Assembly: GCA_030549335.1 (NCBI GenBank)
Contig: CM060195.1
Span: 10,817,501 to 10,881,500 of the forward strand
DNA length: 64,000 nt
Direction: 5' to 3'
Source: Pontederia crassipes
Taxonomy: Eukaryota > Streptophyta > Magnoliopsida > Commelinales > Pontederiaceae
How positions within the stretch are numbered: position 1 is the stretch's first letter; each line of letters begins with the position of its first letter. The notes under the pieces were generated by a model that was given only the letters and a program-made list of their open reading frames with translations, had not been told where the DNA came from and did not search any database. Of this stretch, positions 13,880-51,690 are shown one piece after another. The translations under genes and the position numbers were made by a program.

Positions 13880-15204
13880 ATTGATGCCAGAAGTTATTTT
13901 ATTGACGACGAGGGGAACGGAGGTAAGAACTTGACTGATTTCGAGGCCTTGGCACAACGGGTAGATGTAGTCGTTCCCTCCGATCTCTCAAAAGCGAATT
14001 ACTTAAAAGAGTGCCTGTTCACAAATAGACATGACTTGTTGAAATGTTAATCTCATCTATCAGTACAGTAGAACAATTAAATAAATTGTTTGGTGCATGC
14101 GATTTTTTTGCTGTAAAATATTAATGTTCTCATCCGTGATTCCTTTGTTCTTAATTTTATTTGTCGGCAACGAAACGGATCTCTCGAAAGATTGTGTAGA
14201 AAAGGAGGAAAGAATCAATAGCTTTTTGCTTACGTCACGCGACACAACATAATTTTATGACAGAGAAAGGGCTTCGAATGAAAGGTGGCGGTCGATTCTT
14301 ATGTTTTGACATTTCTTATATATTTCTAATGCTCAGTTTTTTTTTTGTTTTTTTTTTTTTGCAGAATGGAAATCTCAGATAACCAAAAAAAAAGTTTGTG
14401 GAGAGAGTGAGAATGTACACCAAAAATATTTTTGCTAAAGTCATTTGTGAATTATTTTGCTTGTGAGTTTAACATGTGGTTTTCAGACATTAAAAAAATG
14501 AATGAAAAGTATTTCTTTTATTTTTTTTTGTTTTTGAAAACGAAAGTTTAATTTTCAATATTTTAACACATTTTTTTTGTAATATGTAAAACATTTTCGC
14601 CGAAGTAAATAAATGGTGTGCCTACCAACATTGTTGGGGTTCGAGGAATTGAGCACTGCAACGAGGTCCTTGAACCAGTCGATCTGAGCATCAAATGAGT
14701 ACTCGGTCCAGAAGACGAGCAGCCCGAGGCTCTCGTAGAACTCTGCGTCGAGGGCCGTCGCCCCTCCGACCGCAAAGTTGGCGCCGTGGCGGAAGTCCTC
14801 GGCGCGGCCTCCGGCAAGGTATGGCCTGACGAAGAGCAACCCATGGGCTTCCGCTGCACACGCAAGATCGAGGGGTCAACTGATCATACGTACAACATCT
14901 ACGTACACATAACACGTCTACCGCCGGCCGCCCGGTGTAGAAGCATGCACTTACCGATGAAGTCGAGGATGATTCGACCGTTGGAGTAGCGGCCGGTGGG
15001 GCGCTGGAAGAAGGTCTCGCCGTATGGAAGGCTGCCGGTGGGATCATTCACGTCCGTCGACAGGAGTACGTGGTTGCCGGTGTCCGTGAGCGAGTCTCCG
15101 AAGCTGAAGATGGCGTCGTAGCAGCCGCCGGACGCCGCGGTACCAGTCAGTGCCTTCAGGTTTAGGACCAACAGGAGCAGATGAAGAAATCGTGAGATCG
15201 GCAT
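13880..15204 (-). CDS. GDSL esterase/lipase, copy A, exons 1-3 (3' end missing)
   Basis: Three minus-strand exons fit together. Exon 1 is 15204-14955, donor G|GTAAGT. Exon 2 is 14853-14626, acceptor TGTGCAG, donor G|GTAGGC. Exon 3 is 13986-13880, acceptor TTTTGAG, donor T|GTACGT. Phases agree and give a 195-codon open frame. The first ATG is at 15204; an in-frame TTG ten codons upstream is not a likely start. [16 protein letters not shown] begins a hydrophobic signal peptide, so the protein would enter the secretory pathway. Block I is [10 protein letters not shown] with the nucleophile Ser38, block [15 protein letters not shown] (about 107-119), block III EIGGNDY (about 160-166, oxyanion Asn164). 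[15 protein letters not shown] across the exon 1/2 join is typical of the family. Plant members are around 370-400 residues, so the second half is missing: only a fragment remains at 8284. Exon 2 to exon 3 lacks about 15 residues usual for the family, so that splice is a proposal. Probably a dying gene or pseudogene. Confidence 0.8.
13987..14625 (-). other. Proposed GDSL copy A intron 2
   Basis: This is 639 bp of AT-rich DNA with poly-T and poly-A runs (for example 14337-14361 and 14519-14531) between exon 2 and exon 3. The donor GTAGGC and acceptor TTTTGAG keep the reading frame. The family would normally have about 15 more residues before the EIGGND block. The stretch just upstream of the acceptor (plus strand 13987-14020) reads ALF-x-V-like residues interrupted by stops, so the true acceptor may have been further upstream before decay. 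Confidence 0.5.
14854..14954 (-). other. GDSL copy A intron 1
   Basis: A 101-bp intron with a consensus donor (GTAAGT) and acceptor (TGTGCAG), phase 1. In the duplicate near 27.2 kb the donor has become GTAGCT after a short deletion. Confidence 0.85.
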
Positions 15205-15234
15205 GGGAAGGGTGCTGCAAATTCTTGGAAGCAA

Positions 15235-16113
15235 ATTGAAGACCGCAGCAAACTAAAGTTAATATACTTCGGAAATTGATTGGATTTGACGTCATTTTTT
15301 ATTTGTAAAAACTGGATAGATTATATTATATTATACATATATGTGATATATAATTGTTTGGTCCCAATTGTTCCAAATGGTCTGATAATGAAATGTTAGC
15401 ATGTCAATTTACACGTTTAAATCATGCGCCCTTCGACCAAAGGCGATCATTAATTAGTGGTCACAATTAGTACTTTTTTCAGTGATGATAATGTTAATTT
15501 AAGCCAATTAGAGAGTTTTTGAACATTAATTCACTTAAAGGTAGCATTTGTTAATCAGAAGAGTAATAAAGGAAAAAGAAACCAAATAATTTAAAGAAAC
15601 CAAATAATTTTAAGTTGAACTATTCAAATTATATTTTCGTTCGATCACAAAGAATGCCCAAAGTCTATTAAAAAAAGAAAAAAAAGGTAAATTTAAAAAT
15701 AAAATGGCGTACAGCTTCAATTCTCAAATTTATGAGTCAGATAGTGACGCACCAACTATTCAAATTATATGTCCAAAAAGTAACCAATCTGAAATCTCAA
15801 AGTTCCTATAGTAATGGGATAGAAGGAGACCCCCTTAGTTCTTTTCTTTAGAAAAAAAAAATTAGGCTACTCCTAGTACAATGATTAAACTCTTTTCTTT
15901 TATATAGCATCCAATGTTTCAAATTTCACCATTTTTTGGATCATATTATCTATAATTTCTTATTCTTGAGCGATCAACTTATTCTTATCAAATAACAAAT
16001 AATTGTCTTGTTATATAAATTATGGATGACGAACAACTTTGTAAAATAGTGCTAAAGTGATTTATTTTATAACTTTCTTTTCCTACTAATCCTTTAAATG
16101 TTAACTATCTTTC
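15235..16113 (-). promoter_or_regulatory. Upstream region of GDSL copy A
   Basis: This is 880 bp 5' of the GDSL start (minus strand), AT-rich and without coding signal. It is present almost base for base upstream of the broken duplicate (27490-28376), including the shared GACCAAA...GATCATTAATTAGTGG block (15436-15460 and 27688-27720). A TATA-like run (ATATATAATTG, about 15345) lies about 140 bp upstream of the ATG. The promoter role is inferred from position only. Confidence 0.45.
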
Positions 16114-16118
16114 AAATA
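16114..16118. repeat. Target-site duplication AAATA, left (copy A solo LTR)
   Basis: AAATA at 16114-16118 is repeated at 21762-21766, immediately outside the solo LTR. The same pentamer flanks the copy B LTR (28377-28381 and 46768-46772), showing one insertion before the segmental duplication. Confidence 0.85.
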
Positions 16119-16386
16119 TTTAACAATCGAAAATTCAACCTAAAAGTTTTGAGCATTTAGGATAATTTCGCGTTGTTAGTCCGTTTGCCATATAACAAAA
16201 GTAAAAACTTTCTATTAGTCATATAACAATCACTATTGTATAGGACACTAAATATCTAAAACCTTCATTATATTAGTAATCTCAGTGTTCATATGGAAAC
16301 ATAGATTTTAACCCTAAGCACATGTAACACTTCGTCATAAGCTTGAGCTGTCATCCATCAATTAACTTTCGTTATTTGCACGAATC

Positions 16387-19206
16387 TGATCACTAGCTGA
16401 TTACTATATATTTTTATCTCATTTTAGATGTATTTCACCCATATCGAGCCCTCAAATTGCCTAACTTTTGGTCAATTATCTTTGGAATGCATGAATTGTG
16501 ATAACTAGTTGATCTCTCTCATTTTATACTTAATTTCATGTGCATAGAAATTCTGAAATGCTAAAATTCATTAATATCTCAATTCTATGTCAAGTTATAA
16601 TTTCTAGGGCAAGTTATCATTCCAATGTACAAAGTTATCATTATTTTAATTGAGCTGATTTCCAGTGATTATTCTGTCCTAAATCTTATGTCATCATGAA
16701 TTATTCATATTTGGATGATCATATTTCAACTTGTGTTAAGTTATCATTTCATTTCATTGGTTATCACTTTTGAATGTCGAGTTATCGTTTTAGGGCAAAA
16801 CTGTCATTTTGATGTGCAAGGCTATCAATTCTGCATAAAAGCATTAGGCAATCATTATATTATTGTCCTAACTCCTTGCTGCCCTGATTTGATCACATTT
16901 GAATAACCACAACTAAAATTATGACAAGTTATCATTTTTATGGCAACAAGTTATCATTTCCGGATCACCAAGTTATCAATACTATGAAATCCTATCTACA
17001 TTCGATTTCTGACCTTATTCACTTGCCATATTAATCCCTTTGATGCCTTCAATGCTCTGAACCACTCATATTTGGACAATTTCCATAATATATGCAAAGT
17101 TATCATTCCGAACAATAAGTTTTTATTAAACAAATAAAGTTTTTATTCCTCGACAACACCAAATCTTATTTGACAATAAAGTTGACATTACTTGTTGTCC
17201 TAATCCTTATTTGTTTAAATCTTATTTGAGGATTATGATGCTGGTTGTTTTGGGTCTTCTAGCAGGTATAATAAGACTGCAACAAGACTGCACAAGGTGA
17301 AAAAGGAGGGGGGACCACTGTCCAAAAAGGCATCTGATTTCTGCTGGAATCTCAGGACCACTGGACAGGTGGCTTGAATCAAGAGAAGGGAACATTCTGA
17401 TGCTGATCAAAGGGTGCACAGAAGACATATATAAGCTAAAAAAACTCTGGAATCAAGGGGGGAGCCTCCATTTGGAGGGCTGCTGGACAGGAAGCGGAAG
17501 TGGAGATGGAGTGGAGAAGAAGCTAATTTCTGCAGAACAACCCTCATTCCAAGATGAATAACTTCTATTCTTCATTATATTTTGTATCAAACCTTGTAAA
17601 TATGAGGAGCTAAATCCCATGTCTCCTAGGATAGAATAGTAGTCTAGTTTAATTGTAGATGGATAATGAACAAATCTGAATTCCTGCATTAATATCTTAT
17701 TTCTAGTTGTATTTCTGATTTCCTTTCCATATGAATCTGATCCTTGACATTGTAAGGTCCTGATTGTAGCTACAACTGAGAAGTTGTCATTTGTTCTAAT
17801 CTTGTTCAGAAATGAATCAAGAATCAATGCCAAATTTCTAGGTTCTAATCCAATTAGAAATCTGAATTCTGAAATCTATTTTTTTCCTCCAAATTTGATT
17901 TCTTATTTCTGAATTCTGTCAAATCTGTTTCTTCATTGTGGAGCCCTGATTTAATTGATAACTGAGAGGTTACTTATGGTTTCATTCTTATTCAGAAATG
18001 AATCAAGAGGTAATGGTGTTTCCAAGTTTATAATCCCTGATTTTATTGCAAACTTTTGAATGCTGATTTCTGATTTTCCCTTTGCTGATTTCTTGAATCT
18101 TTGGATTCTAATTTGCTGTTGCAAATCCTTGATCTCAAGAAATCAATAAGAAGTGAATCCTAGGGATACTTTGTTGTTCAGAGATGAACCAAAGAGCAAT
18201 GAAAAAGCTGAATTTCAATGAGTGACATGTGCTGAATTCCAATGTTTGCTAGTGCTGATTTCTGAATTCTTTAGTTGTTGCTTTCCTGAATTTAGGGAAA
18301 TTTTGATTGTCATTGTTAAACCCTATTTTAACCTACCACTGAGAGGTGGTCTTATGTCCTTCCTTGAGATTCAGAGATGAACCAAGGAGTAATGAAAATT
18401 TGTAGAATTCCCATGTGTAATTAGGTGCTGATTTCATTCAATCCCTTGGTAAAAATGTGGATTTCATTTGAATTTGCAGCTGAGAGACTGATTTAAAATC
18501 CTCTTGTAGTTTAGATATAAACCAATAAGCATTTGCATCAATATTGAATTGATTTCATCCATGTTTAGTTGATTGAAGCATTTTCCTCATTTCCCAAGTG
18601 TAATTGAAAGTTATCATTTCAAATTTCACTAAATTACTGAAATTCAGCAAGGAACTAAACTTTTGAACTTAATGTTGACTTGATTTCAGTGATGACCCTT
18701 TTCTAATTCAGCTTAGCTAATCAATCTTATGAGAATATGATGATTAGTTCTGGTTTATATTGCTGTGATAACAGCCCATTTTCAAGTTGGATTAAAATTG
18801 ACACATATTGATAACTTGTTCCATTCCATCCATAATTAAGTTAGATGAACCCCAACTCCTAGGAGAACCTTCCTCATTGATAGTTAAACCCCTTGAGCCT
18901 TAGTTTAGCATTTATAATTCAGTTTTGATAACTTTTCAGAAATTCAAAAACAGTTATCATTTTGGCCATTTAAAGAAATCGGTTTGAACTTTCTTTCAAT
19001 TTCTTGAAATTTTAACTTTAGTTAAGGCTAATCTAGATTGTTGTCTTAGGCTTCAAATCACTTTGGATACGACATTTGGGTAAACTACAATTGACCTATA
19101 TACTTGCAGTAGAAAGTTAATTAGGGAGTTAAATCAAAAATTGAAAAATATGAAATTTGACCTCAAAATCAGCAAGTTATCACTACACCCTTCAATATCA
19201 CTATCA
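16387..19206. mobile_element. 2.82-kb insertion with TG...CA ends and GAATC target duplication, probable solo LTR
   Basis: GAATC at 16382-16386 and again at 19207-19211 brackets a block starting TGATCACTAG and ending CACTATCA. Copy B has an empty site in the same LTR (around 28682, ...ACGGATC...AGTGCAGAG). This confirms a clean insertion after the duplication. TG...CA ends and a 5-bp duplication fit an LTR. No protein domain is visible. Inside are four degenerate units built around an ACTGAGAGGT...TTCAGAGATGAACCAA motif (17770-18540) and at least ten copies of AGTTATCA (16600-17110, 18608, 18951, 19173). I could not assign a lineage. A long LTR of the Tat/Ogre kind is one possibility. Confidence 0.7.
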
Positions 19207-19984
19207 GAATCCAGAGTGTAGGATTTCTCAATTAGAGTATGTAAAATCGTGCATATATCCTATACTACATACGATGCATTATCATCATAATAAAATATAA
19301 CATATGAACATGAATGACATGAACTATATCTTGAACCTTACATGACATTACATTATACTTACATTCATTTTCATAAAATATTCATGAAATATAAACATAA
19401 TGTCATACCTGCTTAACTTCAGATCCATCATCTGCAAGTATCATACAATATAAACAAACATTTATATCATTCGTAACATACATGATATAACAAATCATTT
19501 CATTTCACTTTCATTATCATGTACATGTAGGAGTTTCTTCATAACTCCTTTAATCCTTACTTCTTGACTTCTTTCACACTTTACATCTCCTCAGGGTTGC
19601 TTTATAACCTTTTGGATTTACGTTCATTTTTCTTTTCTTTCTTTATTATGTGATCCTTCATGTGTCATCTTCATCCTTCGTCTTTATCACATAATACTAT
19701 CTCGACTTTCATTCCATATCATTAAGTCATATATTAGGAACACATATCATAATAGGGAGGAACTTTATTCCTAGTCATCTTTAAGATATACAAACTTTAT
19801 GCTGAGGGACATTGTTCCTTGCAACGTACATACACATATGTATGCCTTTTACTTCTCAAGCTTAGGTCCCCTTAAAGTACATACATAAGTGTAGGACTTT
19901 ACTTTCTATCTTTACTTCTCCATCATCTTAACTTTCTTTGTTATAAGATACTTTTAAGTTCACTTTCCTTCTTACTTTCAATAT

Positions 19985-20190
19985 CTTTGATAGCTAGGCC
20001 ATATCCTTAGAAACACACGCATCATAATAGTGAGGGACTTTATTTCAAAGAATACACACATTATAATAATGAGGGACTTTATTTTGAAGAATACACATTA
20101 TAATAGTATTCTAGGGAATACACATACTTTCTAATGAGGGACTTTGTTCTCTGAGAAGAACATACACAAATGTAGGACTTTAGTTCGTAG
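19985..20190. repeat. Tandem array of about 45-bp units in solo LTR copy A
   Basis: Four to five imperfect units with the core ATAATGAGGGACTTTATT preceded by an ACACATTATA-like segment. The equivalent array in copy B is at 29525-29720. It is part of the LTR. Confidence 0.75.
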
Positions 20191-20434
20191 GCTTAGTTCC
20201 CGTTGAAATAGATACATAGGTGCAGGACTTTCCTTCTCATCATTGACGAGTGACAAGGACATTCTGTGCATTATACTTTACAATACATCTATCATTCATA
20301 TAAATCATTTTTCATATTTTAGCCTAATTACGACTGAGCATGCATTACGTATATCTATGTGTCATATACAATCAATACATAACCCATATACATAAGAAAA
20401 TAGGTTTAAAATGTCATAAAAACTATTTTCCAGC

Positions 20435-20720
20435 ATCATAGTCGTGCCAAAATATGTCATGGTCGTGCCCAACACTTTCACAGCTATGCCTGGTGTTGTC
20501 ACGCCTGTGCCAAGTGTTATCACGACCGTGCCTACATTTTTCATGGTCGTGTTAGTCTCAGCCATTCCCAGCCTTTGTCAAATTTCAGCATCGCTCTCGC
20601 TTACGATCTTGACCATGTTGGCCACGACTGTGCTTGGCCTTGTCACGGCCATAATGAAGGTGTGCATGACCGAGAGCCATCTAATCATTCGACTTTGTTC
20701 GCTTGATCATGGTCATTCCT
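20435..20720. repeat. About 30-bp GTCACGGCCGTGCC-type repeats in solo LTR copy A
   Basis: Repeated GTC(A/G)TGGTCGTGCC and GTTGTCACG-CTGTGCC units in a locally GC-richer zone. Copy B has the same zone at 29980-30300 with one unit more. Long open frames on both strands across this zone (20444-20758 plus, 20362-20565 minus) result from the repeat and show no domain. Confidence 0.7.
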
Positions 20721-21766
20721 ATGATTGGCATGACCGTGCCGGCGCCCTGAAATCCTGATTTCCAACTCGAAAATCTCGATTTTTAAGATCAAAACTTTAT
20801 TAAAAATAATCTAAACATTTAAAATATTGCATCTAAGCACAAAAGAATCATAGAATATATTAAAGCAATCGATTTCACTTCATCGTCAAGATTTAAGGCT
20901 TTTTCCTATAAATTCATACAACTACTAGAATCTATTCCCTGCATAGTATTCTGGCAGCAGACACTAAAACATTAATAACATAATTTATTCTTATTATTTT
21001 CATACGAATCCAATTTTCATAGAAAGGTTACACGAACCTTTAACTTGTGATTAAATTTCAAACTCCAATTCAGTATTTCTGATTTATGATACTTTTTACA
21101 AATTCATCTCACTATTACCCGAGACAATATGATAGTAGTCTGATGTTTGGAGCATAACTATTTTTATATGCCTTCAAATCGGATGAAACAAATTCTTTGG
21201 GAACTAAACTTCGAGGGCTTTCCATCCATATATTATTTGTAATTTTGGATAAGTAAAACCTACCAAAATAATTATTACAAAATAATCGCAAATTTAATAG
21301 TTATGCAACATAAATCATGCAACCCTCAATCAAAATTCCTATCAAGAACATGGTGTTCTTGAACCTCAAATCAAAACAAAACATCATTGAGTGGGGAGAG
21401 AGGGGTTTGGATCCCTTTTACATACCTTTGGATTTTAGATCTAAAATCCCACCTTTCCTAATCTAGAAGCCTCTATGTCTTATTCATCATTCTTCTTTAG
21501 CCTCTATGTCTTCTTGTCATTTCCCTTGAACCCTTAATCATCTCCTAATGTGGATCTTAAAAAGTATTCATCATGAAGAATATGACTCTAGATCTTCCAA
21601 CCTTAGAATTTCTTGTGGAGAAGAAAAAGATAGAGGAGGAAGGGTTGACGGCTAGGTTCGGAAGGAGACTAATAGGGTTTTTAGACCTTTATATAAAGTT
21701 ACATTAGAGTTTTGGCCCAAAAGGTCAAAATATCCTTGGCCTAATATTTTGGGATGTTACAAAATA

Positions 21767-22172
21767 TCTTTACATTAAATAACAATAAAGAGTTATACTG
21801 ATGCAATCTTCATTTATACTTTTACATCTATGGGATTCGAATACAAAGAAATAGAAAATTCATTAGCAATGATGTTCAGAACATGAGGTATAGAAAAAAA
21901 TGTAATTCATAGTAAAAATGAACCAAACTTAATTATGAAATAATCACAATGTCAATGACCAATAATCTTATGTCTCAGTAAATTATGGATTTCTTTACTT
22001 GTCTTACTCTTGATCATACTGTTCTTCTTGTTCATGATCATGTTATAGTTCATGCTCTTGTCCATGTTCTTGTTCATTTTCATGCTCCTATTATGTTAAT
22101 ATGCTTCTTCATATTCAATCTCATGTTCATATTTATTTTCTTTCTCCTTTGGCGCGCCGCACTACATAATTT
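21767..22172. other. Spacer between solo LTR copy A and the CACTA pair
   Basis: Shared with 46773-47033 and, in inverted form, with 43180-43435. Copy A has about 190 bp not seen in the others (about 21930-22130, rich in TTCATG/CATGTTC), and lacks about 60 bp present in copy B near 46842-46900. No gene is seen. Confidence 0.6.
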
Positions 22173-22684
22173 CACTACAAGAAATAGGCCGACATTGGGA
22201 TGCATCTCTAAAGCAGCATTAAATAGACAATAAATAGCCTAGCGGCACATTAGCATCACACTCACCCCACAAGCATGGCGATGCAAACATTTTGGTGCCA
22301 ATAGCATCTCCGTTGTGCCAACAACATGTCGACGCTATTAGCGTGAGTAGTCAATGCTATAGAGATGCTGTTGTGCCACTTTTTGTTGCCTGCTTTAGCG
22401 TTGCAACTTGCGGCACCAAACAAAGTGACGCCATGGTGATGCTATTTAGACACGAAAGCCATCGCCACATTGCCTAGTATGTTACCATGTGTGGCACTAT
22501 TGTAACGTTAAGACGCCGCCATTTTGGCACTAAGTCGACACGCAGTATGACACCAATATTATAGTTGTGCAACGCTAATGCGATATGGTGCGACCCTAAT
22601 CTGTCACTAATGTGACTCTAATATCCATACATTTTTCACCCTCCTACTCCTATTCTTCCCTTACCTCCCCATACAATTGACAAG

Positions 22685-22706
22685 GCATATATATATATAT
22701 ATATGT
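22685..22706. repeat. Short (AT)n microsatellite
   Basis: About nine AT repeats. The orthologous tract in copy B (47559-47597) is roughly twice as long. Confidence 0.85.
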
Positions 22707-22869
22707 ACATCCATAAATTCATAACAATATAAGTTAAAATAATTACAATGCTTCAAAGTCAAACTAATAAGATCATAGAAAAAATTTAATAATACAAAAT
22801 AAGTATATGGAGTTACAAAATTCATAATTATTTCATAGTTATAAAATTTTCTATCATCCTACATCATTA

Positions 22870-23440
22870 TTGTCATCCACGCCATTCCTGACATTCGACA
22901 ATGACATAATCAGTCCTTGAGCTCGTGTAGTATGAAACTGCAAAAAAGCCTATAGAGACTGCAAGATTGGCGCCATCTACTCAGTAATTAATCCTATGAT
23001 GCTGACCAGTGCCACCTAGGAGCCACCGATGAATTTGGCATAGGCGAGCCACCAATGTAACCTCTTGTCTTTCTAGAACCTGAGTAGTTGTTCCTAATCC
23101 CCTCATGTATCCCACTTGTTGTGCCATCCTCCTCCTCCTAAACATTAGCGTCCGCTACAAAATTTAATAAGCTTCACAATCATATAAAGTATTATATAAC
23201 ATTAAAAATACTAATCTTTTCTGTGATACCTTACTTGCAAGTGTCTAGGGTCATCGTCATACTTCTTTGCCATCTTTCCCTTATATGCATCATAAAAGAT
23301 TTAAACACTACATTTTTATTAAATATTTCAGACTAATTTGAACAACCAAATAAGTAAATAATGACACTTACCAAAGCTCTACGAGCAGTAGATGTGACCA
23401 TGTCATTGATCTTCTTACTCTTATGGATTGCGTGAAAATC
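22870..23440 (-). pseudogene. PF03004-like transposase, C-terminal part of the outer CACTA
   Basis: The minus strand contains FHAIHKSKKINDMVTSTARR (about 23450-23385), homologous to the EATHKSKKTNDLVTP block of the inner element and the YEATRKSRKTNGLVTP block at 4470. Further downstream, intron-separated pieces lead to the C-terminus near 22870. The reading frame is interrupted at 23444 by the inner CACTA insertion, so the gene is broken there. Confidence 0.7.
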
Positions 23441-24099
23441 CATCACTACAAGAAATTTGCCGATCTGCGACGCACACATGTCGTTGCTAAGGAGACACTA
23501 AAGTATGGCTAAAATAAATAGCCATATATTAGCGTTGACATGATATCACACAATGAAGACGTCGGCGTTCAGTAGCTATTAGCGTCGCAATGGCACTGAT
23601 GACAAATGCGACGTTACTAGCACCATAGTTTGACGCTATTGCGACTTTATCATGACACGAAAAGGTAAGCTGGCGCTGAATATGATGACGCTATTTGTCA
23701 CGCTAAAGTTGTGCTTAATATAATGCTACTTAGATGCTAAGGTGATGCTAATGTGATGTCGTGTTTTGACTTAGTTGTGACACTAAAGGGGCGCTAACAT
23801 GACGCTAGTTGCGATATATTTGAAATAGTGTGCAATCACCTTGTGTCGCTAATGCGATGATAATGAAATGCTAAATCCTAATAATTTTGTCCCATTCCAG
23901 TCTTTTTGTTTTCTTCCCGCCACCATACAAATTATACAACACATATATAATGCATTCTTCACATCGATCACAATAATAATAAAGAAAAGTACTAATAACT
24001 ATCACAAAAGAGATAATACAACAACAAAATGATATCACACATCATAACAAAATATATCGAAGATACATACTACAAAAGTTTCTATCCTAAATCTTTATC

Positions 24100-26440: not shown

Positions 26441-26712
26441 CCTAAAAAATTTAGATAAATTTAGATACTTAGTGAAAAAAATCCTGATCAATGAATTGTC
26501 ATATTCTGGTCTATTTTTTTCAATATTCTCATTTTACCAAGAATGTTCATCCACATTTTTGTTAACTAAAATGAGAACATGACCGAAGAGGCCAAAATTT
26601 TATAATAATTTATCAATTTCAAGTTGAATCTCATCGAATACATATTTGAGGCATAATGGAGAATAATATAGTTAATTTGTTCATTTATTTTTAATGTCAC
26701 AATGTGCATCTA

Positions 26713-26937
26713 CACTACAACAAAATAGTCATTTAAGGACACATAATTAAAAACACAAATTGAAGCGTCCTTATTTTATACATTTATAAGGATGCTTTAT
26801 ATAGCATTGGTATTATTATATAATAATAACGACACAAATATATTTAGCGCCCTGCTTTTAAAATTTTAAGACACATTAATTTTGTGTCTCTATTTTAATT
26901 TAAAAAATAAATATGCTTTTATTTTAAATCTCATAAT
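26713..26937. other. Filler DNA at the duplication junction, possible transposon end
   Basis: This sequence occurs in neither flank of the two copies. It starts CACTACAACAAAATAGTC, which resembles a plant DNA-transposon terminus (CACTA or Mutator-like), and has no coding capacity. It sits exactly between the end of copy A homology (26712) and the start of copy B homology (26938). Confidence 0.6.
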
Positions 26938-29720: not shown

Positions 29721-29979
29721 TTACTTCACGGACTTAGGTCCCCTTGAAGTACATATATAGGTGCATAACTTTTCTTCTCATCATTGATGAGTGATAAGGA
29801 CATTCTTCAACTTTAGGTATATTATGCTTTGCAATACATCAATCATTCTTCATATTTTATTACAATTAAGCATGCATTACGTATATCTATGTGTCATATA
29901 CAATCAATAAACATCAATACATAACCTTTATACATAAGAAAATAGGTTTAAAACATCATAAAAATAATTTTCCAGGGTC

Positions 29980-41130: not shown

Positions 41131-41143
41131 AAAAAGGGGGAGA
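41131..41143 (+). promoter_or_regulatory. Polypurine tract of the full-length copia element
   Basis: AAAAAGGGGGAGA, one base before the 3' LTR start TGTTGGAGC at 41145. It primes second-strand synthesis in this family. Confidence 0.9.
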
Positions 41144-41144
41144 C

Positions 41145-42317
41145 TGTTGGAGCAAAGTTTTTATGCCCTATATAATTATATTTTAATGATACAAACCTCG
41201 AAAGATTAGAGTTATATTTAAAATGCCGAAATATTTTAAATAGAAATGAGTTGCTTCATGCATTAATCTTTTGATTAATATTTCTTTATGTTCTCATGAG
41301 ATTTAGATTAATGGGTGAATTTATAGTTATAGATAATTCTCTTATCTTTATGGAGAATCAAATATCATCTCATTTGGAAACTAGTATGAAAAGTTATGTA
41401 TAAAAGAGTAAAGATATAAAAACTTTTTATTTGAATTAGACAATTTTATATACTGAAGTTTGAATCAATACTTGACTATGATATTATTAGATTCTGGATG
41501 AATGATGAATATAAAAATTGTAGATAATTTTGTTAGCTTTTCGTACAATCAAAGATCATATCATTTGGATAACTTTACAAAAAGTTATGCTTAAAATAGT
41601 GCAGGACGGTCGACCAGTCAGTGTGCAGAATGCACTATAACGGTCATATTTTGACCTCAAAATTAGGAAACAAGCCCCAACTGCTAAATGGAGTTAAGAA
41701 GGCTATAAAAGGGGACCCAAAGGTGTAGGAATGATCAAGACTTCTAGGAAAAAGTGGGAAGAACATTTGAGAAGTCCATTTGAGCTCCAAGTTGCCAATA
41801 TTTCAATTCTTTCTCTCTTATTCTTGTGTGAGGTTCCAAATTGTAAAAGAGAGATTGTTAGATGTTCTTGTGATATTGTAATATTTGTTTAATCCTGAGT
41901 GAAAAGAGGTTGTGTCTTACCTCTTGAGTGAATAAAAAATGAGTGAAAGCCTACAAGTGAAAGATGTGTGCCTTACCTCTTGAAAAGGAGAAAAAGCAAA
42001 AGATGTAAAGGGTTTCTTCCTTGCCCCATTTGTAACAAAGGAAGGGAGTTAGTGGAATCTCTGATGGTCTCGAGGTCGAGAAGTTGGAACAGGGATGTAG
42101 GCCAAGATGTGGGCGAACCTCGTCAACAAACCACCGTGCACCTTGTGTTTGTCTTTCTCTCTCCTTCATCCCTTATTATGCATGTGATATAATCGCTTTT
42201 GTGTTGGTTTAAATATTAACGAATCGATTTTAAGCTTCCGTGATGATTTTCGTAAAATCGATATTTTCTGTTAAACACCAATTCACCCCCCCCCTCTTGG
42301 TGCCTTGTGATCCTACA
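41145..42317 (+). repeat. 3' LTR of the full-length copia element
   Basis: TGTTGGAGCAAAG to GATCCTACA, 1173 bp. A TATA-like TATAAAAGG is at about 41704. It contains a C-run of nine (about 42287-42295) near its end. It is followed by ATTTA, the target duplication. Confidence 0.93.
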
Positions 42318-42322
42318 ATTTA

Positions 42323-42738
42323 TGGATTTAATTTGATGCACCTTGAAAGAATCATATTGATGATTTAAAATATTTAATCAAGATTCCTTAACTTTCTTTG
42401 TTCCTTCTTATGTAATAATAAGTTTTCTCCAAATTTCATTAGCACTTTGACAATAAGAAATCTAATTAAACTCTGTTGAATCCAAAGCACAATAAAAAAT
42501 ATTTCATTATATTCTAAAGTTGATTTTCCATGTAAATCAAATTTTTTTTGCACGACATCCCACATGTCAATATCAATAGAACATATGTATGCTTGCATCA
42601 TAATATTCCAATATGTAAAATTTGATGCATTAAAAAGCGGAGGACGATTAATTGGTTGACCCTTGAAAAACTAAATGCACTTGATGTCTTCTAAAGACGT
42701 TTAAATCTTAAAACAAGAGCAACCCCGCGTTGATACCA
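42323..42738 (-). mobile_element. Copia gag start and primer site, minus strand (fossil)
   Basis: Minus-strand translation gives MQAYICSIDIDMWDVVQKKF, the beginning of a gag of the same family as 34120-35655. At 42729-42738 the reverse complement of TGGTATCAACG lies next to the LTR end at 42741, a primer-binding site. It belongs to the element that was split by the insertion at 32802. Confidence 0.82.
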
Positions 42739-42740
42739 AT

Positions 42741-43121
42741 TGTAGGATCCTAAAGCACCAAGAGGACGGTGAATTGATGTTAAATCTGAAAATATTAATT
42801 TCACAAAAATCCTTGCATAAGTTTAAAAGTGATTCGTTAAACTTTAAATCAATGCAATAACAATCAAATCACATGCATACGAAAATAAGAAGGAGAGGGA
42901 GAGAGAAAGCAGACACAAAGAACACGGTGGTTTGTTGATGTGGTTCGGCCACCTTGGCCTACATCCTCGCTCTAACTTATCTCAACCTCGAGACCGTCAG
43001 AGATTTTACTAAACACCCTTCCTTCGTTCCAAATGGGGCAAGGAAGAAACCCTTTACACCATATCACATTTTTTCCGCTTCAAGAGATAAAGCATACCAC
43101 TCCTCCTAGGAAGCTTATCTT
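42741..43121 (-). mobile_element. Copia LTR piece, minus strand
   Basis: On the minus strand it ends GGATCCTACA at 42741 and contains the CTCGAGGTTGAGATAAG and TTGCCCCATTTGGAACGAAGG segments found in the 3' third of the other copia LTRs. It joins at about 43121 to sequence related to the CACTA terminus and its flank. Confidence 0.78.
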
Positions 43122-43133
43122 GTAGTGAAATTA

Positions 43134-43704
43134 GAGATGCATCCCTATGTTTGCCTATTTATTGTAGTGAAATTATGTAGTGTGATGCGCCAAAGAAGAA
43201 AGAAAATAAATATGATCATTTTTATTATGAATTTCATTTTTGTCTATACCTCATGTTCTGAATGTCATTGCTAATGAAATTTCTATTTCTTTGTATTTGA
43301 ATCCCATAGATGATTGATATAGCTCAGTAAGAATGAAGATGTGTGCAACATCCAACAATGCTCGTGATGATGTAAAAGTACAAATGAAGATTGCATCATT
43401 ATAACTCTTTATTGTTATTTAATGTAAAGATATTTTCTAACATTCCCAAATATTGGGCCAAGGATATTTGAACATTTTGGGCCAAAACCCTAATGTAACT
43501 CTATATAAAGGTCTAACAATCCTATTAGTCTCCTCACATATCTAGCCATCAACTCTTCCTCCTCTATCTTTTCTTCTCCATAAGAAAACTCTAAGGTTGA
43601 GAGATCTAGAGCCATATTCTTCTTGATGGCTACTATTCAAGATCCACGTGAAGGAGGAGATTAAGGTTTCAAGGGAAAGAACAAGAAGATATAGAGGCTT
43701 CTAT
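43134..43704. repeat. Inverted copy of the right-hand flank (CACTA tip, spacer, gypsy LTR end)
   Basis: This reads as the reverse complement of 46503-47069: about 36 bp of the outer CACTA terminus, the spacer 46768-47033 and the last 265 bp of the gypsy solo LTR. By eye the identity is well above 90 per cent. Together with the adjacent LTR piece it forms the left arm of a long inverted repeat. Confidence 0.85.
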
Positions 43705-44025
43705 AGGATCCCAAAGCACCAAGAGAGGGGGGGGGGAATTAATGTTAAAGTCGAAAATATCGATTTCTCGAAAATCATTGCAGAAGCTTAAAATCAATCG
43801 TTAAACTTTAAATCAATGCAATAACAATCAAATGACATGAAAAATAAAATAGGAAGGTGAGGGAGAAAGAAAGCAAACACAAAGAAGATGGTGATTTGTT
43901 GACAAGGTTCGGTCACACCATGGCCTACATCCCCACTCTGACTTCTCTACCTCGAGACCACTGAAGATTCCACTAAATACCCTTCGTTCATTCCAAATGG
44001 GGCAAGGAAGAAACCCTATAACCAC
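43705..44025 (-). mobile_element. Copia LTR piece, minus strand, part of the inverted repeat
   Basis: It is the reverse complement of the 3' end of the LTR at 45305-46502, including TATAGGATCCCAAAGCACC and the G-run at about 43726-43736. It ends near 44025, where plus-strand gag sequence begins. Confidence 0.8.
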
Positions 44026-44336
44026 AACACCTCATTAGAAGAAGTAAAGAAGGAAAAAACTTTGAAAAATACGCAAAATAATAAGAAGGCTTATCATGCA
44101 AAGAAAAGTAATTCTAGAAGATATTTCAGACATAAAAATTATTATTGGAAATCTAAACATTCTTATGATAAATCCTTGAAAAAATCACATATCACTTGTT
44201 TTGCATGTGGATTACATGGTCATTATGCATATTAATGCAAAGTAGGAAAAATATTTCAACATGGAATGATATGTGTTCCAAAAGTAACCTTGACTAACAA
44301 AATTGGACCCAAAAAAGTTTGGGTACCAAAAGGCTA
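44026..44336 (+). mobile_element. Copia gag tail, plus strand (fossil)
   Basis: Contains a zinc-knuckle block TCFACGLHGHYAY and a C-terminal KIGPKKVWVPKG, comparable with CFHCGYEGHYSYDC and GPKQSWVPKR in the full-length element. Only the tail of gag is recognisable. It is broken. Confidence 0.78.
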
Positions 44337-45304
44337 AATAATTGTTTCTTAGGTGTGCCTCACACGTAAAGTAAAGGACAAGTGAATTTGAAAATGTGAA
44401 GGCACGAATCTCATGGTAAAAGTATCATTTACAAATATTTGAAACATTTTCCATGAGCATGAACCTACATTGTTGTAGAATTACTTTATTATCATGACTC
44501 TTAAGTTTTAAGTTTAAAATCATCATGTTATAAAATTAAAGTTTTGATTTCTCATTCAAAATTACAAAATTATTATTTATTTGCAATAAAAGAGGGACAT
44601 ATAAAATACTAAAGAAAGATAGAAAGAGAAAGAAAATTGGTCATAGTGATAGGGGAGCTTGCTCAAAACAAATGTTAAAATATCAGTTTCTCTATTCACT
44701 TTAAATATGATTATTACCTTATTGTCAAATGCTTGATCACTTGATATTATTCAATTTAAATTTGACATATCATTATTGTCTCAAAGTTCTATGCAATGTT
44801 TTTTAATCCCTAAATTTTTGTGATGTGTTATTCATTTGATTTCATATTTTGCCATTATAAAGTAGTCATGACTTTAGGGGGAGTTATTTTTGCCTATCAC
44901 ATATATTATACATTAAACAATTCTTTATAATATGATACTCTACATGTTTCATATATGAAAAAATGGGAGAATAAATTTTTGTTTAGAAGTTGAATGATTA
45001 AGGGGGAGTTACATATTGTTTCTTATATGCTTCATTTGTAAATTATTTTTTGATGAAACAAAATGGGGAGAAATATAGGAGAAATATGATATAAGAATAT
45101 AAGGGAAATTTATTATAACTCAATATGTGGACCCTATGAATATAATTCAATATGAAAAGTATCTTACAATCAATACTTATGTGCATATCTACTATTATAA
45201 GAAAAGCTTAGTTTTAGAGGGAGTAAAATTGATTTTACTTTTTTCCTTCCTAACTTAAATACTTTACACATTTCTCGGTTTGTCTTCATAAAAAAAGTGA
45301 AGAT
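44337..45304 (+). mobile_element. Copia 3' non-coding region with polypurine-like motifs
   Basis: Similar to 40380-41140: GGGGAGCTTGCTC (about 44653), TTAGGGGGAGTTATTT (about 44875), AAGGGGGAGTTACAT (about 45001) and GGGGAGAAATATAGG (about 45065), leading into the LTR at 45305. No open frame of interest. Confidence 0.75.
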
Positions 45305-46502
45305 TGTTGGAGCAAAGTTTTATGCCCTATATAATTATATTTTATTATACAAACTTCAAAAGATTAGAGTTATATGCTGAAAAAGTTTAAATAGAAATGA
45401 GTTCTTTCGTACATTAAACTTTCGAAATAGTTGTCTATGTTCCCATGTGATTTACATTAAGATAAAAGTTGTAGAGAATTCTATTACCTTTTCATAGAAT
45501 GAAAAATCATCTCATTTGGATAACCATGCAGAAAATTATGCTGAAAATAGTGCAGGATGGTCAACTTGCCGGTCGAAGCGATGTAGGTCGGTCGAAGCTC
45601 ACCGGTCGACCGATCAGGCATACCAGTCAACCGGTCGATGCACAAATCACCCACACTGGTAGACAATCTAGTCGTTGCACCGATCGATCGATCAGCGCAG
45701 AGGTTGAATTCTAAAAAGGCGAGACTATACCAGTCGATGGTCCGACCGATAGACCGGGCGCTCTCACTAAGGAAATCGTGCAACGATCATATAGACCGAT
45801 CGACCGATCCATTAAAGTGGTCGACTGGTGCCCGATTGAGATGAACATTAACGATTAGTTTTGGCCAAATCAAAGAGCAATGATCATATTATTCAAAGAG
45901 GCCTATAAAAGAATACCAAGGGGTTCAAAATTCAACAAGCACTCAAGGGAAACATCAAGAATTAAAGGAAAATTATTTTCTTGAAGTTATTGTGAAATCT
46001 TCTCTTCTTTCTCTCACTTTTCTTGTGAGGTTGATATTGTACAAGAGAGAAATACTTTCTTAGAAAATTGAGTGTGGGCTCCTATGTAGAAGAGGTTTTA
46101 TCTTACCTCTCGGGCTAAGAAAAAGATAAGCTTCCTAGGAGGAGAGGTGTGCCTTACCTCTCGAAGCAGAGAAAAGGTTGCGTGGTATAAAGGGTTTCTT
46201 GCTTGCCCCATTTGGAATGAAGGAAGGGTGTTAAGTAGAATCTTCGGCGATCTCGAGGTTGAGAACTTGGAGGGGGGAAGTAGGTCATGTTGTGGCCAAA
46301 CCTCGTCAACAAACCATCGTGTTCTTTGTGTTTGCTTTCTCTCTCCCTCTACTTCCCTATTTTATTATGCATGTCATTTGATTGTTATTGCATTGATTTA
46401 AAGTTTAATGAATTGATTTTAAGCTTCTGCAATGATTTTCAAGAAATCGATATTCCTGGCTTTAACACCAATTCACCCCTCTTGGTGCTTTGGGATCCTA
46501 TA
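45305..46502 (+). mobile_element. Copia LTR, right end of the rearranged element
   Basis: TGTTGGAGCAAAG to GGATCCTATA, 1198 bp. It contains the CCGGTCGACCGG-type array (45565-45840) and a TATA-like CCTATAAAAGAATACC (45902-45917). It is followed by GAAGG, matching the GAAGT before 31057 at 4 of 5 bases. Confidence 0.85.
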
Positions 46503-46767
46503 GAAGGCTCTATGTCTTCTTGTCCTTTCCTTGAAACCTTAATCTTCTCCTTCATGTGAATCTTAAAATGTAGCCATCACGAAGAATATGGCTCTAGATC
46601 TCCCAACCTTAGAGTTTTCTTATAGAGAATAAAAGATAGAGGAGAAAGAGTTGATGGTTAGGTTTGTGAGGAGACTAATAGGGTTGTTAGACCTTTATAT
46701 AGAGTTACATTAGGGTTTTGGCCCAAAAGGTTCAAATATCCTTGGCCCAATATTTGGGGACGTTAGA

Positions 46768-47033
46768 AAATATCTTTACATTAAATAACAATAAAGAGTT
46801 ATAATGATGCAATCTTCAGTTGTACTTTTACATCATTACGAGCATTGTTGGATGTTGCACACGTCTTCATTCATACTGAGCTATATCAATCATCTATGGG
46901 ATTCAAATACAAAGAAATAGAAATTTCATTAGCAACGACATTCAGAACATGAGATATAGACAAAAATGAAATTCATAATAAAAATGGTCATATTTATTTT
47001 CTTTCTTCTTTGGCGCGTCGCACTATATAATTT
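46768..47033. other. Spacer between solo LTR copy B and the CACTA pair
   Basis: AT-rich, no gene. Homologous to 21762-22172 and to the inverted copy at 43180-43435. It contains GGCGCGTCGCACTATATAAT just before the CACTA end. Confidence 0.6.
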
Positions 47034-47556
47034 CACTACAAGAAATAGGCAAACATAGGGATGCATCTCTAAAGCAGCATTAAATAGACGATAAAGAGCC
47101 TAGCGACACATTAGCATCACACTCAACTCACAAGCATGGCGACACAAACATTCTGATGCCAATAGCGCCCTCATCGTGCCAACAACACGTCGACGCTATT
47201 AGCATGAGTAGTCCACTCTATAGAGATGCTATTGTGCCACTTTTTGTCGCTCACTTTAGAGTTGCAACTTGCGGTGCCAAACAAAGCGACGCCATGGTGG
47301 AGCCATGGTGATGCTAAATTGTTAGACGTGAAAGCCATTACCACGTCGCCTAGTATGTTACCATGTGTGACTTTTGTAACGTTAAGATGATGCCATTTTG
47401 GCACTAAGTCGACACCCACTGTGACACCAATATTATAGTTGTGCAACACTAATGAGACGGTGCGAATCTAATCTGTCTCTAATGTGACTCTAATATCAAC
47501 ACATTTTTCACCCTCCTACTCCAATTCTTCCCTTCACTCCCCATACAATTGATAAA

Positions 47557-47558
<2 letters not shown>

Positions 47559-47597
<39 letters not shown>
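47559..47597. repeat. (AT)n microsatellite
   Basis: Around 20 AT repeats in the subterminal region of the outer CACTA. Copy A has about nine at the same place. Confidence 0.9.
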
Positions 47598-47602
<5 letters not shown>

Positions 47603-47739
47603 GACACACATTCCAATATAATTTAAAATAATTACAATGCTTCAAAGTCAAACTAATAAGATCATATAAGAAAATTAATAATACAAAATAAGTAACATCG
47701 TATGGAGTTACAAAACTAATAATTACGTCCTACATTATT

Positions 47740-48324
47740 ATTGTCATCCACGCCATTCTTGACATTCGACGATGACATACTCGGTCCCTGAGCTCGTGGT
47801 GTAGTATGAAGCTGCAAAAAAGCCTAAAGAGATTGCAAGATTGGCGCCATCTACTCAGTAATTAATCCTATGATGTTGTCCAGTGCCACCTAGGAGCCAT
47901 TGATGAATTCGTAATAGACGAGCCACCAATGTAGCCTCTTGTCTTTTTAGAACCTGAGTAGTTGTTCCTAATCCCCTCAAGTATCCCACTTGTTGTGCTA
48001 GCCACCTCCTCCTAAACATTAGCGTCCTCTACAAAATAAAATAAGCTTAATAATCATATAAAGTATTATATAACATTAAAAATATTAATCATTTCCGAGA
48101 TACGTTACTTGCAAGTGGCTAAGTACTAGGATCATCCCTATACTTCTCTGCCATCTTTCCCTTATATGCATTGAAAAATATTTAAACAATACGATTTTAT
48201 TAAATAATCCAGTCTAATTTAAACAATCGAATAAGTAAATAATGAGATTTACCAAAACTCTATGGGCAGTGGACGTGACCATATCATTGATCTGCTCTTA
48301 TGTGTCGATTGCACGAAAATCCAT
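47740..48324 (-). pseudogene. PF03004-like gene of the outer CACTA, C-terminal part, copy B
   Basis: Counterpart of 22870-23440. The minus strand near 48240-48322 carries the HKSK..IND-type block just before the target CAT (48322-48324). The frame differs from copy A by small indels. The insertion of the inner element separates it from its upstream exons at 52858-54215. Confidence 0.65.
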
Positions 48325-48999
48325 CATTACAAGAAATCGGCCGATCTATGACGCACACATGTTGTTGCTAAGGCAACACTAAAGCATGGCTAAAAAAAAT
48401 AGCCACATATTAGCATTGACATGACATCACCAATGGAGACGCTAGCGTTTAGTAGCTATTAGTGTCGCAATGGCGCCGATGACAAAGGCGACATTACTAG
48501 CGCCACAGGTTGATGCTATTGCGGCCTTATCATGACGCGAAAAGGTAAGTTGGCACTGAATATGATGACGCTATTTTGATGCTAAGGTGATGCTAAAGTT
48601 GTGCTTAATGTGACGCTACTTAGATGCTAAGGTGACACTAATGTGATGTCGTGTTTTGTCTCAGTTGCGACGCTAAAGGGACGCTAACGTGACGCTAGTT
48701 GCGATATATTTGAAATAGCGTGAAATCACCTTGTGTCGCTAATGCGACGCTAAATCCTAATAATTTTGATCCATTCGAGCCATTTTATTTTCTTCCCACA
48801 CCATACAAATTATACAATGCATATATAATGCATTCTTCACATTGATGATAATAATAATAAAGAAAAGTACTAATAACCATTACAAAAGAGCTAATACGAT
48901 AACAAAATTATATTACACATCATAATAAAATATATCAGAGATACATAATACAAAAGTTTCTATCCTAAATCTTTATCATCGTCGTTATCGTTCTGACAT

Positions 49000-51330
49000 T
49001 CGACGCCCATGTACTCGGTCCTTGACCTCATTGGGATTGAATTTGTGGCTGGAGCATGGTCCGGATCACCTAGAAAATAGGGGCCAAATGTTGAAGAATT
49101 CAGCTAGCTGCTCCGAGATGAGTCCCCTGATGCTATCCCACGTGAGCTTAGGTGTAGTGGATGAACTCAGAGTAAATGAGCCGCCTGCATATCCTCCACT
49201 TCTCTTAGGAACTTGAGCACCTGCTTAGGCCACACAAGTATCCTCCTCATGATGTCATGCCAGCCACTTTCTCCTAAACAGCAGCATCCTCTACAAAATA
49301 GACGATATATATATAACATTATAAATCATATAAATTATATAACATCAAAAAACATATAAACATACAAAGTGTTATAGCATTAGAAACATGAATCCTTTTC
49401 GAGATAAGTTGTTTGGGGACTGAGTACTAAAATCATTTCCGTACTTATTGACTATCTTCTAACTATACGCATCCTAAAAATTTAAATATTGCATATTTCA
49501 AATATCATTCATGCTAATGTGAACAACCAAGTGAACATGTGATGATACTTACTAGAACTCTACAAGTAGTGGGCATGACGAAGTCATTTGTCTTCTTACT
49601 CTTATGTGTGGCCTCGTAGACTATGCGAAAGTCTATAGTACCACTTATTTTTTCTCTTGCAATAAAGTTTCAAATTTTATAAAATAAGCATAATACAAAA
49701 GTTTGATTATTCCATTTTATATCGACATTACCATGTGTCTTCGATGCTCGTCAAATCGAATGGAGCTGTATGTGTGGATGTAGGCCTCGAACTTCGAATG
49801 TCTATTCACTTTTGCCTTTGTAAACTTTCTTTGTCATTCTTCAACCATCTTGTATAAACATCAAATACTTAGACTTTGTAAAATTATAAATTTAATAAAA
49901 ACAATACAAAAGTAAGCTTACCACTTCTTACATAACAACTTCCAAACTGGGCGCCTAATATGTCTCGGACATGTTTGTATGCCTTGCTCCAAACTGAGGT
50001 CAGTGAACATAAGGGCTTTGAGAAACTTATATAGCCAATTTCTGAGGTGTGTTTCGCAACCATCTCCTCAAAAGCTCTCCAGATTGTCCCTAAATTTAGA
50101 TCTGGATGAAACTGATTTGCTTCCTAAAAATACTATAGATGTAAGTAATTTAAAAATAATATAAAATAAAATATCTAATGCAGAAAAAGAGTATATAGTA
50201 AACGTCAGAAATATGCCATCCCTCACTTGAATTGGGTCATCTTTCCATGATCAAGCCCCCTATGGCAAGTGGAAAAGGACAAGAGCACTGACATCCCGCA
50301 TGATAGAAGCAAGTATGAAAGTGGTCGTGCAGTCTATGAAAAGAATTAAATTTGTGTTTATAAGAAAATGTATAAAGAAATTTATAGCACTTATTTAACT
50401 TACGTCCGAGCAACGTATTGACAATGGCCACCCCATTATCGTGGAATCCCTCTTCTTCTGTCGAAGAGAAATTGTCATCTGCTGGAGTAGCTGAGAGGGT
50501 TTGACATGATCGATAGGCCCTGGTATAGAACAAATCATTAGTGTAATACAAAATTAAACTAATGATAGTTCATATATCAATAGTAAATTTCACACCCCGT
50601 TCGATATCTAACATTATCTGATCCATGCTAGTCCACTCGTTAGAATGTGTAGATCCAACTACGTGCCCCATCGACAGCGTCGCAACTGACAACATTAAAA
50701 TAAGAAATGATTAATATAATTACATGACAATTATAAATAAAATACTACTAAATATATCCCCTAGCATAATATGTCAGTCCTCATCGCATGATTATGTGGA
50801 ATGGATGTTGGAATGTGGAGAATCGTCCATCGGTCTCAGTAAAGGCGTAGCAATTGTCACCATAAAAAATAGTTAAAACATTTGCATGTACTTAAATTTA
50901 TTAAATAGACAAAAATAACCTATGGTGACATGTCGATCGGGATCATGTGATCGAGATGATCCACCAATGGACTGCCTACTATGCGATGGTCCGGCTATGT
51001 GTCCTGTCGGGATGGAGCAATTGTCATCATTAAAAAAATAATTAAAATATTTGCATGTATTTAAATTTATTAAAAACATAACAAATAACTTGTGGTGATA
51101 TGTCGATCGTCATCATGCAATCGAGACGATCCACCGAACCACCTATTCCGTGATTATCTAGCTATGTGCCCCGTCGGCGGTGGAGCAACTGTCACCAATT
51201 AGTCAAATATAAATAAGCTAGACAATAAATATATCACCTGGTGGTCGACTCGCATCACTCATAGGGAGTGAGAGCCTAGAAGAGCAGGATGCACCTGAAG
51301 CTCGATCTCGTGTAACCATGCTTGAAAAAA
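49000..51330 (-). pseudogene. PF03004-type gene of the inner CACTA, copy B
   Basis: Counterpart of 24100-26440. The minus strand starts MVTRGRSS near 51318, has repeated His/Ser/Arg-rich exons (50780-51240, with residues such as GPSHSRQSIGGSSRSHDPDR), an exon at 50240-50520 (VSALVLFHLP... type), and the core block near 49850-49550 (RKSLQRQK; RHSKFEAYIHT; EKISGTIDFRIVYEATHKS). The core exon is less well preserved than in copy A: small insertions near 49735 and frame changes are seen. It is probably inactive. Confidence 0.7.
50780..51240 (-). repeat. Tandemly repeated exon-intron units in the CACTA gene, copy B
   Basis: Units of about 173 bp with the GATCGAGATGATCCACC block at about 50946 and GCAATCGAGACGATCCACC at about 51117, each followed by GGTGGAGCAA or GATGGAGCAA and an AT-rich intron. 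Same as 25840-26400 in copy A. Confidence 0.7.
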
Positions 51331-51546
51331 ATTTAAATACTTAGTGACAAAATTATGATCAATGAATTATCATATTTTGGTCTCTTTTTTCAATATTCTC
51401 ATTTTATTTACCAAGAATGTTCATCCACATTCTTGTTAACTAAAATGAGAACATGACCAAAGAGATCAAAATTTTATAATAATTTATCACTATTTGACTT
51501 CAAGTTGAATCTCATCGAATATAGATTTGAGGCATAATGAAGAACA

Positions 51547-51690
51547 ATATAGTAAATTTGTTCATTTATTTTTGAAGTAATGATGTTCATCTAGTTGGAG
51601 GCATGCATAAGAAATAACATAGTTTTTTTGTTTTTCTATTTTTTAAGTCACGATGTTGATCTAGTTAGAAGCATAATTAAGAATAATACA
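51547..51690. repeat. Local tandem duplication at the edge of the shared segment
   Basis: A unit of about 70 bp (TTGTTCATTTATTTTTGAAG...GTTCATCTAGTTGGAGGCAT) is repeated as TTTTTAAGTCACGATGTTGATCTAGTTAGAAGCAT. Copy A homology ends within this unit (26712). Confidence 0.6.

Follow-up and report, generated by a model that had tools for sequence, protein, structure and literature searches.

The window, by which we mean the whole 64,000-nucleotide stretch of DNA that was analyzed, is C13:10817501-10881500 in a water hyacinth (Pontederia crassipes) assembly. Two exons of a GDSL esterase/lipase gene are followed by non-coding upstream DNA, a solo LTR, a spacer, and an outer and an inner CACTA element. 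The series then occurs a second time, interrupted by copia retrotransposons (Table 1). We refer to the two series as copies A and B. Scans of the window for tRNA genes and against Rfam (gathering thresholds) gave zero matches.

Table 1. Features of the duplicated region (window coordinates)
Feature	Position	Strand	Evidence or remarks
Copy A of the tandem unit, observed extent	14671..26712	+	Self-alignment; left edge aligned
Copy B of the tandem unit, observed extent with later insertions	26938..51597 (right end approximate)	+	Self-alignment; right edge read
GDSL esterase/lipase exons 1-2, copy A; duplicated part from 14671	14626..15210	-	Pfam PF00657, E 4.1e-05; tblastn with plant GDSL proteins
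GDSL pseudogene fragment, copy B	26938..27466	-	In-frame stop, splice-donor deletion, small frameshifting deletions; cut off at joint
Upstream non-coding DNA, copy A	15211..16113		Three nearly full-length genome copies: A, B, C14
Solo LTR, copy A, interrupted by 2.82-kb insertion	16119..21761		Target duplication AAATA at 16114-16118 and 21762-21766
2.82-kb insertion, solo-LTR-like	16387..19206		TG...CA ends; target duplication GAATC; only in A
Solo LTR, copy B, interrupted by copia1	28382..46767		Target duplication AAATA at 28377-28381 and 46768-46772
copia1, in solo LTR of B	31057..46502	+	Target site GAAG(T/C/G); site also filled in C14
copia2, nested in copia1	32802..42317	+	Target duplication ATTTA; LTR-LTR p 0.062; absent from C14's copia1
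Inverted copy of 46182-47072	43131..44025	-	copia1 LTR end, solo-LTR end, spacer, CACTA start
Outer CACTA 5' part, copy A, starts CACTACAAGAAA	22173..23443		Edges read
Outer CACTA 5' part, copy B	47034..48324		Edges read; p to A 0.118
Inner CACTA, copy A, cut off by junction transposon	23444..26712		Self-alignment, edges
Inner CACTA, copy B	48325..52854		CAT/CAT target duplication
Junction: first 225-230 bp of a CACTA-type element, starts CACTACAACAAAATAG	26713..26942	+	Genome relatives; fetched relatives continue past break

The initial annotation of this DNA described a tandem segmental duplication of about 12 kb. Self-BLAST of the window aligned 14670-16366 with 26938-28666 (85.1% with gaps, E=0), 19209-21497 with 28684-31042 (79.5%, E=0), the short block 21499-21920 with 46505-46986 (77.7%, E=2.8e-115), and 22123-26712 with 46984-51593 (84.5%, E=0). 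The blocks form a single collinear plus-strand chain in which the copies lie 225 bp apart and, as had been proposed, GDSL exons, upstream DNA, solo LTR, spacer, and CACTA elements follow each other in the same order. The chain is broken where expected, by the 2.82-kb insertion in A (16387-19206) and by 15.4 kb in B (about 31057-46502). In addition, about 200 bp of A (21922-22122) is without a counterpart in B. Neither self-BLAST nor comparison with contig C14 (see below) revealed a recurrence of the left flank (12567-14670) beside B or of the DNA right of 51597 beside A. A relative (71%) of one part of the left flank (12831-13406) does lie at 6737-7349. With the copies adjacent and alike in order and orientation, the tandem segmental duplication is confirmed in this assembly. 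However, 12 kb is only a lower bound on its length, with the joint lying inside a truncated transposon.

Several insertions are common to both copies. Reading of the edges verified the AAATA target duplication around the solo LTR in A and in B, and this shared site supports the proposal that the solo LTR is older than the duplication. This LTR, a putative gypsy one according to the initial annotation, has no internal domain here and has dispersed relatives in the genome (best 40 of 4536 candidates). Both CACTA elements are likewise older than the duplication, being present in A and B in the same order. The inner element is preceded by CAT at 23444 in A and at 48325 in B, as previously noted, and in B there is also a CAT after 52854. 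It therefore has a 3-bp target duplication together with CACTA termini, the 5' one of which is altered at a single base in B, to CATTA. A reverse-strand CACTACAAGAAA end at 57559-57570 was considered as the right end of the outer CACTA element and rejected, its flank being AAT versus TTT on the left. The 2.82-kb insertion is confined to A, as claimed, and is absent at that site from both B and C14. Its ends and 5-bp target duplication make it solo-LTR-like.

A foreign 225-bp piece (26713-26937), which the initial annotation had missed, sits between the copies. It was inserted at a CTA in A's inner CACTA element, where B reads CTAG and has no such piece. CTA precedes its 5' end, CACTACAACAAAA, and its 3' end is missing. 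Among the best 40 of 127 candidates, there were 39 other genome matches, with 85-91% identity. All 39 extend to position 225 of the piece, and 34 begin at position 1, with the remaining five starting at 2-6. We fetched three of these relatives, and all three continue beyond the point where the window turns to GDSL exon 2. The fusion of transposon to exon runs via TTGAA (26938-26942), of which all five letters occur in one of the three relatives, the other two having TTG and then GA. Because relatives continue past the switch and TTGAA is common to both partners, we interpret the junction as a CACTA-type element in A's inner CACTA that broke and became fused to the GDSL exon. The joint is either the original duplication joint or the product of a later deletion into B's left end. 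These are indistinguishable, so the unit was 12 kb or longer. Of its 225 sites, the piece in the window has private differences at 13 (5.8%), compared with 1-3 in its relatives. Since 5.8% is about half of the A-B CACTA difference of 0.118, the junction element dates from roughly the time of the A/B separation, although the error is wide.

We compared the window with the rest of the genome. Among contigs C1-C22, 16 exceed 37 Mb and make up eight neighboring pairs, and for this reason the genome looks allotetraploid with n=16. This is in keeping with passages of the published genome report, which describe water hyacinth as an allotetraploid with 16 chromosomes, two subgenomes with an estimated separation of about 6.4 million years, and a genome of 1.22 Gb (PMC10938897), against 1.13 Gb in 43 contigs for the assembly used here. 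The even-numbered contig is the larger in every pair of C1-C16, a size asymmetry between subgenomes.

Near-complete upstream DNA was found at three places: A, B, and C14:38344867-38345766 (best 40 of 46 candidates). The C14 copy, which is missing from the initial annotation, comprises the left half of the unit. C14 is collinear in blocks with the C13 window at coordinates -641 to 16386 and 66015-68467, with no strong match for 8425-12566. The flanks differ by 0.089-0.124, and a further block at -3818 differs by 0.067. With collinear flanks on both sides and paired contigs, the C14 locus is the homeolog of the C13 window. The 60 kb of C14 that we read contains one copy of the unit. It stops inside the 3' LTR of copia1 and resumes at C13 window coordinate 66015, and the joint of this loss is at offset about 2545-2556 of C14:38350001-38360000. 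The right part of the solo LTR and the spacer were not found in the 60 kb of C14. These missing parts are older than copia1, and the gap is therefore a deletion rather than the ancestral state. Among the best 40 of 589 candidates from the whole genome, A, B, and the inverted copy alone extend into the spacer. The CACTA region is lost from C14 and the spacer has no match there, so the shared CACTA insertions could not be checked against it.

The homeolog altered the placement of the copia elements, both of which had been considered private to B. This is true of the nested copia2, which is absent from C14's copia1, where the sequence aligns to B on either side of the ATTTA site. It is not true of the outer copia1. 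This element starts at the identical solo-LTR nucleotide in B and C14, whereas A has no insertion and also lacks about 10 bp immediately beside the site. The same-base insertion in the homeologous locus makes copia1 older than the B/C14 split. copia2 has LTRs at 32802-33973 and 41145-42320 (self-BLAST) with Retrotran_gag_2, rve, and RVT_2 between them, which identifies it as a copia-type element. In B, the two LTRs of copia1 differ by 0.135 in one of the parts compared and by 0.155 in another. Between B and C14, the copia1 LTRs differ by 0.154 and 0.156, and other copia1 stretches differ by 0.079-0.130.

B also contains an inverted duplication that was missing from the first account, with 43131-44025 matching 46182-47072 at 91% identity. 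Its divergence is 0.079 overall and 0.056 in the spacer part. The events found in B only are therefore copia2 and the inverted duplication. Beside the latter, at 43116-43127, a second CACTACAAG-like start adjoins LTR sequence, a pattern suggestive of template switching. The 5' part of copia1 (the right part of the LTR plus gag), with the nested copia2, occupies 32022-43121 and is inverted relative to C14's copia1.

Divergence of the 15235-16113 upstream region had been suggested as a yardstick for the duplication. It was obtained (A-B 0.070). However, the level of A-B substitution varies about twofold among the classes of DNA (upstream 0.070, exons 0.083, CACTA 0.118, LTR 0.148), so it is not directly comparable to the ages of transposable elements. 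We dropped absolute dates on the same grounds. In none of the four segments in which A, B, and C14 (here C) were compared was A-B the lowest distance. In exons (AC 0.026, AB 0.083, BC 0.085) and upstream DNA (AC 0.054, AB 0.070, BC 0.071), A rather than B is closest to C14. In the LTR, B is closest to C14, both in the main stretch (BC 0.1375, AB 0.148, AC 0.154) and in the first 250 bp (BC 0.087, AB 0.128, AC 0.150).

The exon distances reflect the decay of B. With six GDSL paralogous stretches as outgroup, the 45 two-to-one exon sites comprised 19 derived in B, 4 in C14, and 2 in A, with 2 uniting A and C14 and 18 ambiguous. We therefore do not take the resemblance between the A and C14 exons to prove that these two copies are closest kin. 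Of the 38 exon changes private to B, 29 are C>T or G>A, a bias that resembles the decay of methylated silent DNA and may have arisen in that way.

For the solo LTR, 27 relatives were extracted as outgroups. Five of these (length >1900) were used in a first rooted tree, and 24 were used in a second tree, in the analysis of shared-derived sites, and in a 27-row set for AU tests. L044, L045, and L058 (>3200 bases) were left out. A second AU set had 19 rows, 16 of them LTR relatives. Both trees grouped B with C14, as ((B,C14),A), with support of 87/90 (5 outgroup rows) and 99/97 (24 outgroup rows). Making A and B sisters cost 12.1 (27 rows) or 10.3 (19 rows) log units, with p-AU values of 0.018 and 0.038. 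The stricter SH test gave p 0.141 (27 rows, not rejected) and 0.040 (19 rows). Making A and C14 sisters gave p-AU values of 0.171 (27 rows, not rejected) and 0.015 (19 rows). A third AU test, based on the 24-outgroup tree, rejected A+C14 (p 0.0105) and did not reject A+B (p 0.257). The B+C14 grouping is best in all tests, and each alternative passes at least one. The inner branch is short (0.010-0.013, versus 0.07-0.10 for end branches).

Shared-derived LTR sites gave the same picture. With a 75% outgroup threshold, 20 sites united B+C14, compared with 8 each for A+B and A+C14. The counts for B+C14, A+B, and A+C14, respectively, were 28, 12, and 17 at a 60% threshold and 9, 3, and 2 at 90%. 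B and C14 also have in common one 9-bp deletion, absent in all six scorable outgroup rows. On this sequence evidence, the separation of A from B probably came slightly earlier than that of B from C14. By divergence, the order runs from the A/B split (LTR 0.148; A-C14 0.154) through copia1 (0.135-0.155) and the B/C14 split (0.1375) to the inverted duplication (0.079) and copia2 (0.062), with the first three near one another. A relative clock for six or more events, as the initial annotation envisaged, can thus be assembled. It needed revision, though, because the outer copia was misplaced until the homeolog was consulted.

The interpretation that we favor, as slightly more likely than not, is that the duplication, with its joint in a truncated transposon, preceded the subgenome split, that C14 later collapsed to a hybrid copy, and that further events followed in C13's B. 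A stretch rich in transposable elements, upstream of and reaching into the GDSL gene, would have been duplicated in tandem. The joint, whose anatomy is described above, would have formed by end joining inside a CACTA-type transposon at the 5-bp TTGAA microhomology, leaving B's GDSL copy as a truncated pseudogene. The A and B lineages would have separated before or at the subgenome split, slightly before B and C14 did, and copia1 would have entered the B-type copy between these two separations. If the duplication is that old, then C14 must be a recombinant, because it combines A's complete left edge with B's copia1. Unequal recombination between A and B is the most likely reason for the reduction of the C14 pair to a single hybrid. 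In C14, all DNA from the 3' LTR of copia1 up to the right flank was deleted as well, and copia2 and the inverted duplication were later events in C13's B. For the central proposition, that the duplication predates the divergence of the subgenome progenitors and that one subgenome collapsed the pair to a recombinant (A-type on the left, B-type on the right) while the other kept both, we consider the chances to be even.

The private changes in A, B, and C14 bear on this. In upstream DNA, there are 36 in B, 20 in A, and 23 in C14, and in the LTR, there are 134, 193, and 156, respectively. The B:A ratio shifts between the two (36:20 versus 134:193; Fisher p 0.0013), which fits a hybrid C14 copy. 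However, the shift could instead reflect promoter constraint in A and C14. A sharp change point from A-type to B-type sequence in C14 could not be placed because three sequences yield only private changes.

A different history is a real possibility, although not the one that we expect. In it, the duplication occurred in the C13 lineage after or near the subgenome split, when unequal exchange joined two old haplotypes, one without copia1 (A) and one with it (B), and C14 was never duplicated. Ancestral polymorphism would yield the same LTR tree with no collapse, and this scheme explains both the shared copia1 and ((B,C14),A). Furthermore, the A/B split in the LTR is only about 10-15% deeper than the B/C14 split, which is within reach of ancestral polymorphism. 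However, B should then be closest to C14 throughout, and upstream DNA contradicts this (AC 0.054 versus BC 0.071). The shift in private-change ratio also counts against it, as a weak signal (upstream alone, p 0.064) that is confounded by constraint.

It is doubtful that copia1 was instead present before the duplication, that C13 was duplicated after the subgenome split, and that A then lost copia1 by a deletion across its site. The missing 10 bp or so right beside the site in A would suit such a loss. We estimate the probability of a chance gap touching the site as roughly 5%, from about 7 gaps of at least 10 bp in A over about 2.6 kb of LTR, having set aside a 17-bp gap that came from the cutting of the A pieces. 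The AU test that retained A+B is also compatible with it, and A-B is just below B-C14 in exons and upstream DNA. However, this history predicts that A and B are closest to each other, whereas A-C14 is closer in exons and upstream DNA and B-C14 is closer in the LTR. The two lower p-AU values for A+B and the 8 shared-derived LTR sites, versus 20 for B+C14, also oppose it.

Capture of copy B by the junction transposon, which would have carried it in the manner of a Pack-CACTA element rather than by tandem duplication, is very unlikely. The start of the transposon does coincide exactly with the A/B joint and has a CTA target site, but the window right of B contains no matching reverse end, even with up to 3 mismatches allowed. 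The sole reverse match (57555) fits the other CACTA family, and AAT rather than CTA comes after it. The cargo would also be more than 9 kb of neighboring DNA in its original order. We dropped this explanation for want of a matching 3' end in the window. An assembly artifact, with two haplotypes or homeologs placed end to end, is scarcely credible: A and B differ by 7-15% and have different insertions, both are distinct from the C14 homeolog, and the joint is a microhomology fusion within a transposon in a window without N bases.

The locus resembles maize p1/p2, a tandem plant gene duplication with nested LTR retrotransposons and a homeolog for comparison. Passages of the p1/p2 study (PMC2686159) report that the homeologous copy p3 was compared, that nested LTR retrotransposons drive the parts asunder, and that unequal crossing over or gene conversion was named for a p1/p2 hybrid and for contraction and expansion of the array. 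They also place the duplication at about 2.75 million years, younger than the maize/sorghum divergence, and describe working proteins. In contrast, the A/B split here either coincides with the subgenome split or slightly precedes it, and what B retains of the gene is a pseudogene fragment.

The homeolog suggests, although it does not prove, collapse by unequal recombination, and homeolog copy-number differences may be losses by that route rather than gains. If so, a homeolog that seems never to have been duplicated has reverted to a single copy, and dating the duplication by which homeologs carry it gives the wrong age.

Nested-insertion dating of plant intergenic DNA takes the order of events from nesting and target duplications and their depth from LTR-LTR differences. 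Here, the duplication and the homeolog add two time points and show that an insertion can be misjudged as private when the homeolog is not considered. Tandem duplication of this sort is well known in plants, and the locus is a well-dated example of it. What the locus contributes is that the homeolog shifts one "private" event across the duplication clock, since ordering from a single chromosome had misplaced the outer copia. In one compact locus, a solo LTR, two CACTA elements, a joint transposon, a duplication, two copia elements, a homeolog split, and an inverted duplication can be ordered.

Some related sequences lie nearby or on other contigs. A further GDSL exon (72% identity) is at C13:10804950-10805250, about 12.5 kb left of the window, and other GDSL matches are on paired contigs, for example, C5/C6, C9/C10, and C15/C16 (best 40 of 47 candidates). 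A CACTA relative in inverted orientation, with 72-74% identity, is at 3166-5346. The surrounding left-flank DNA aligns with C14, and this relative is therefore probably older than the subgenome split.
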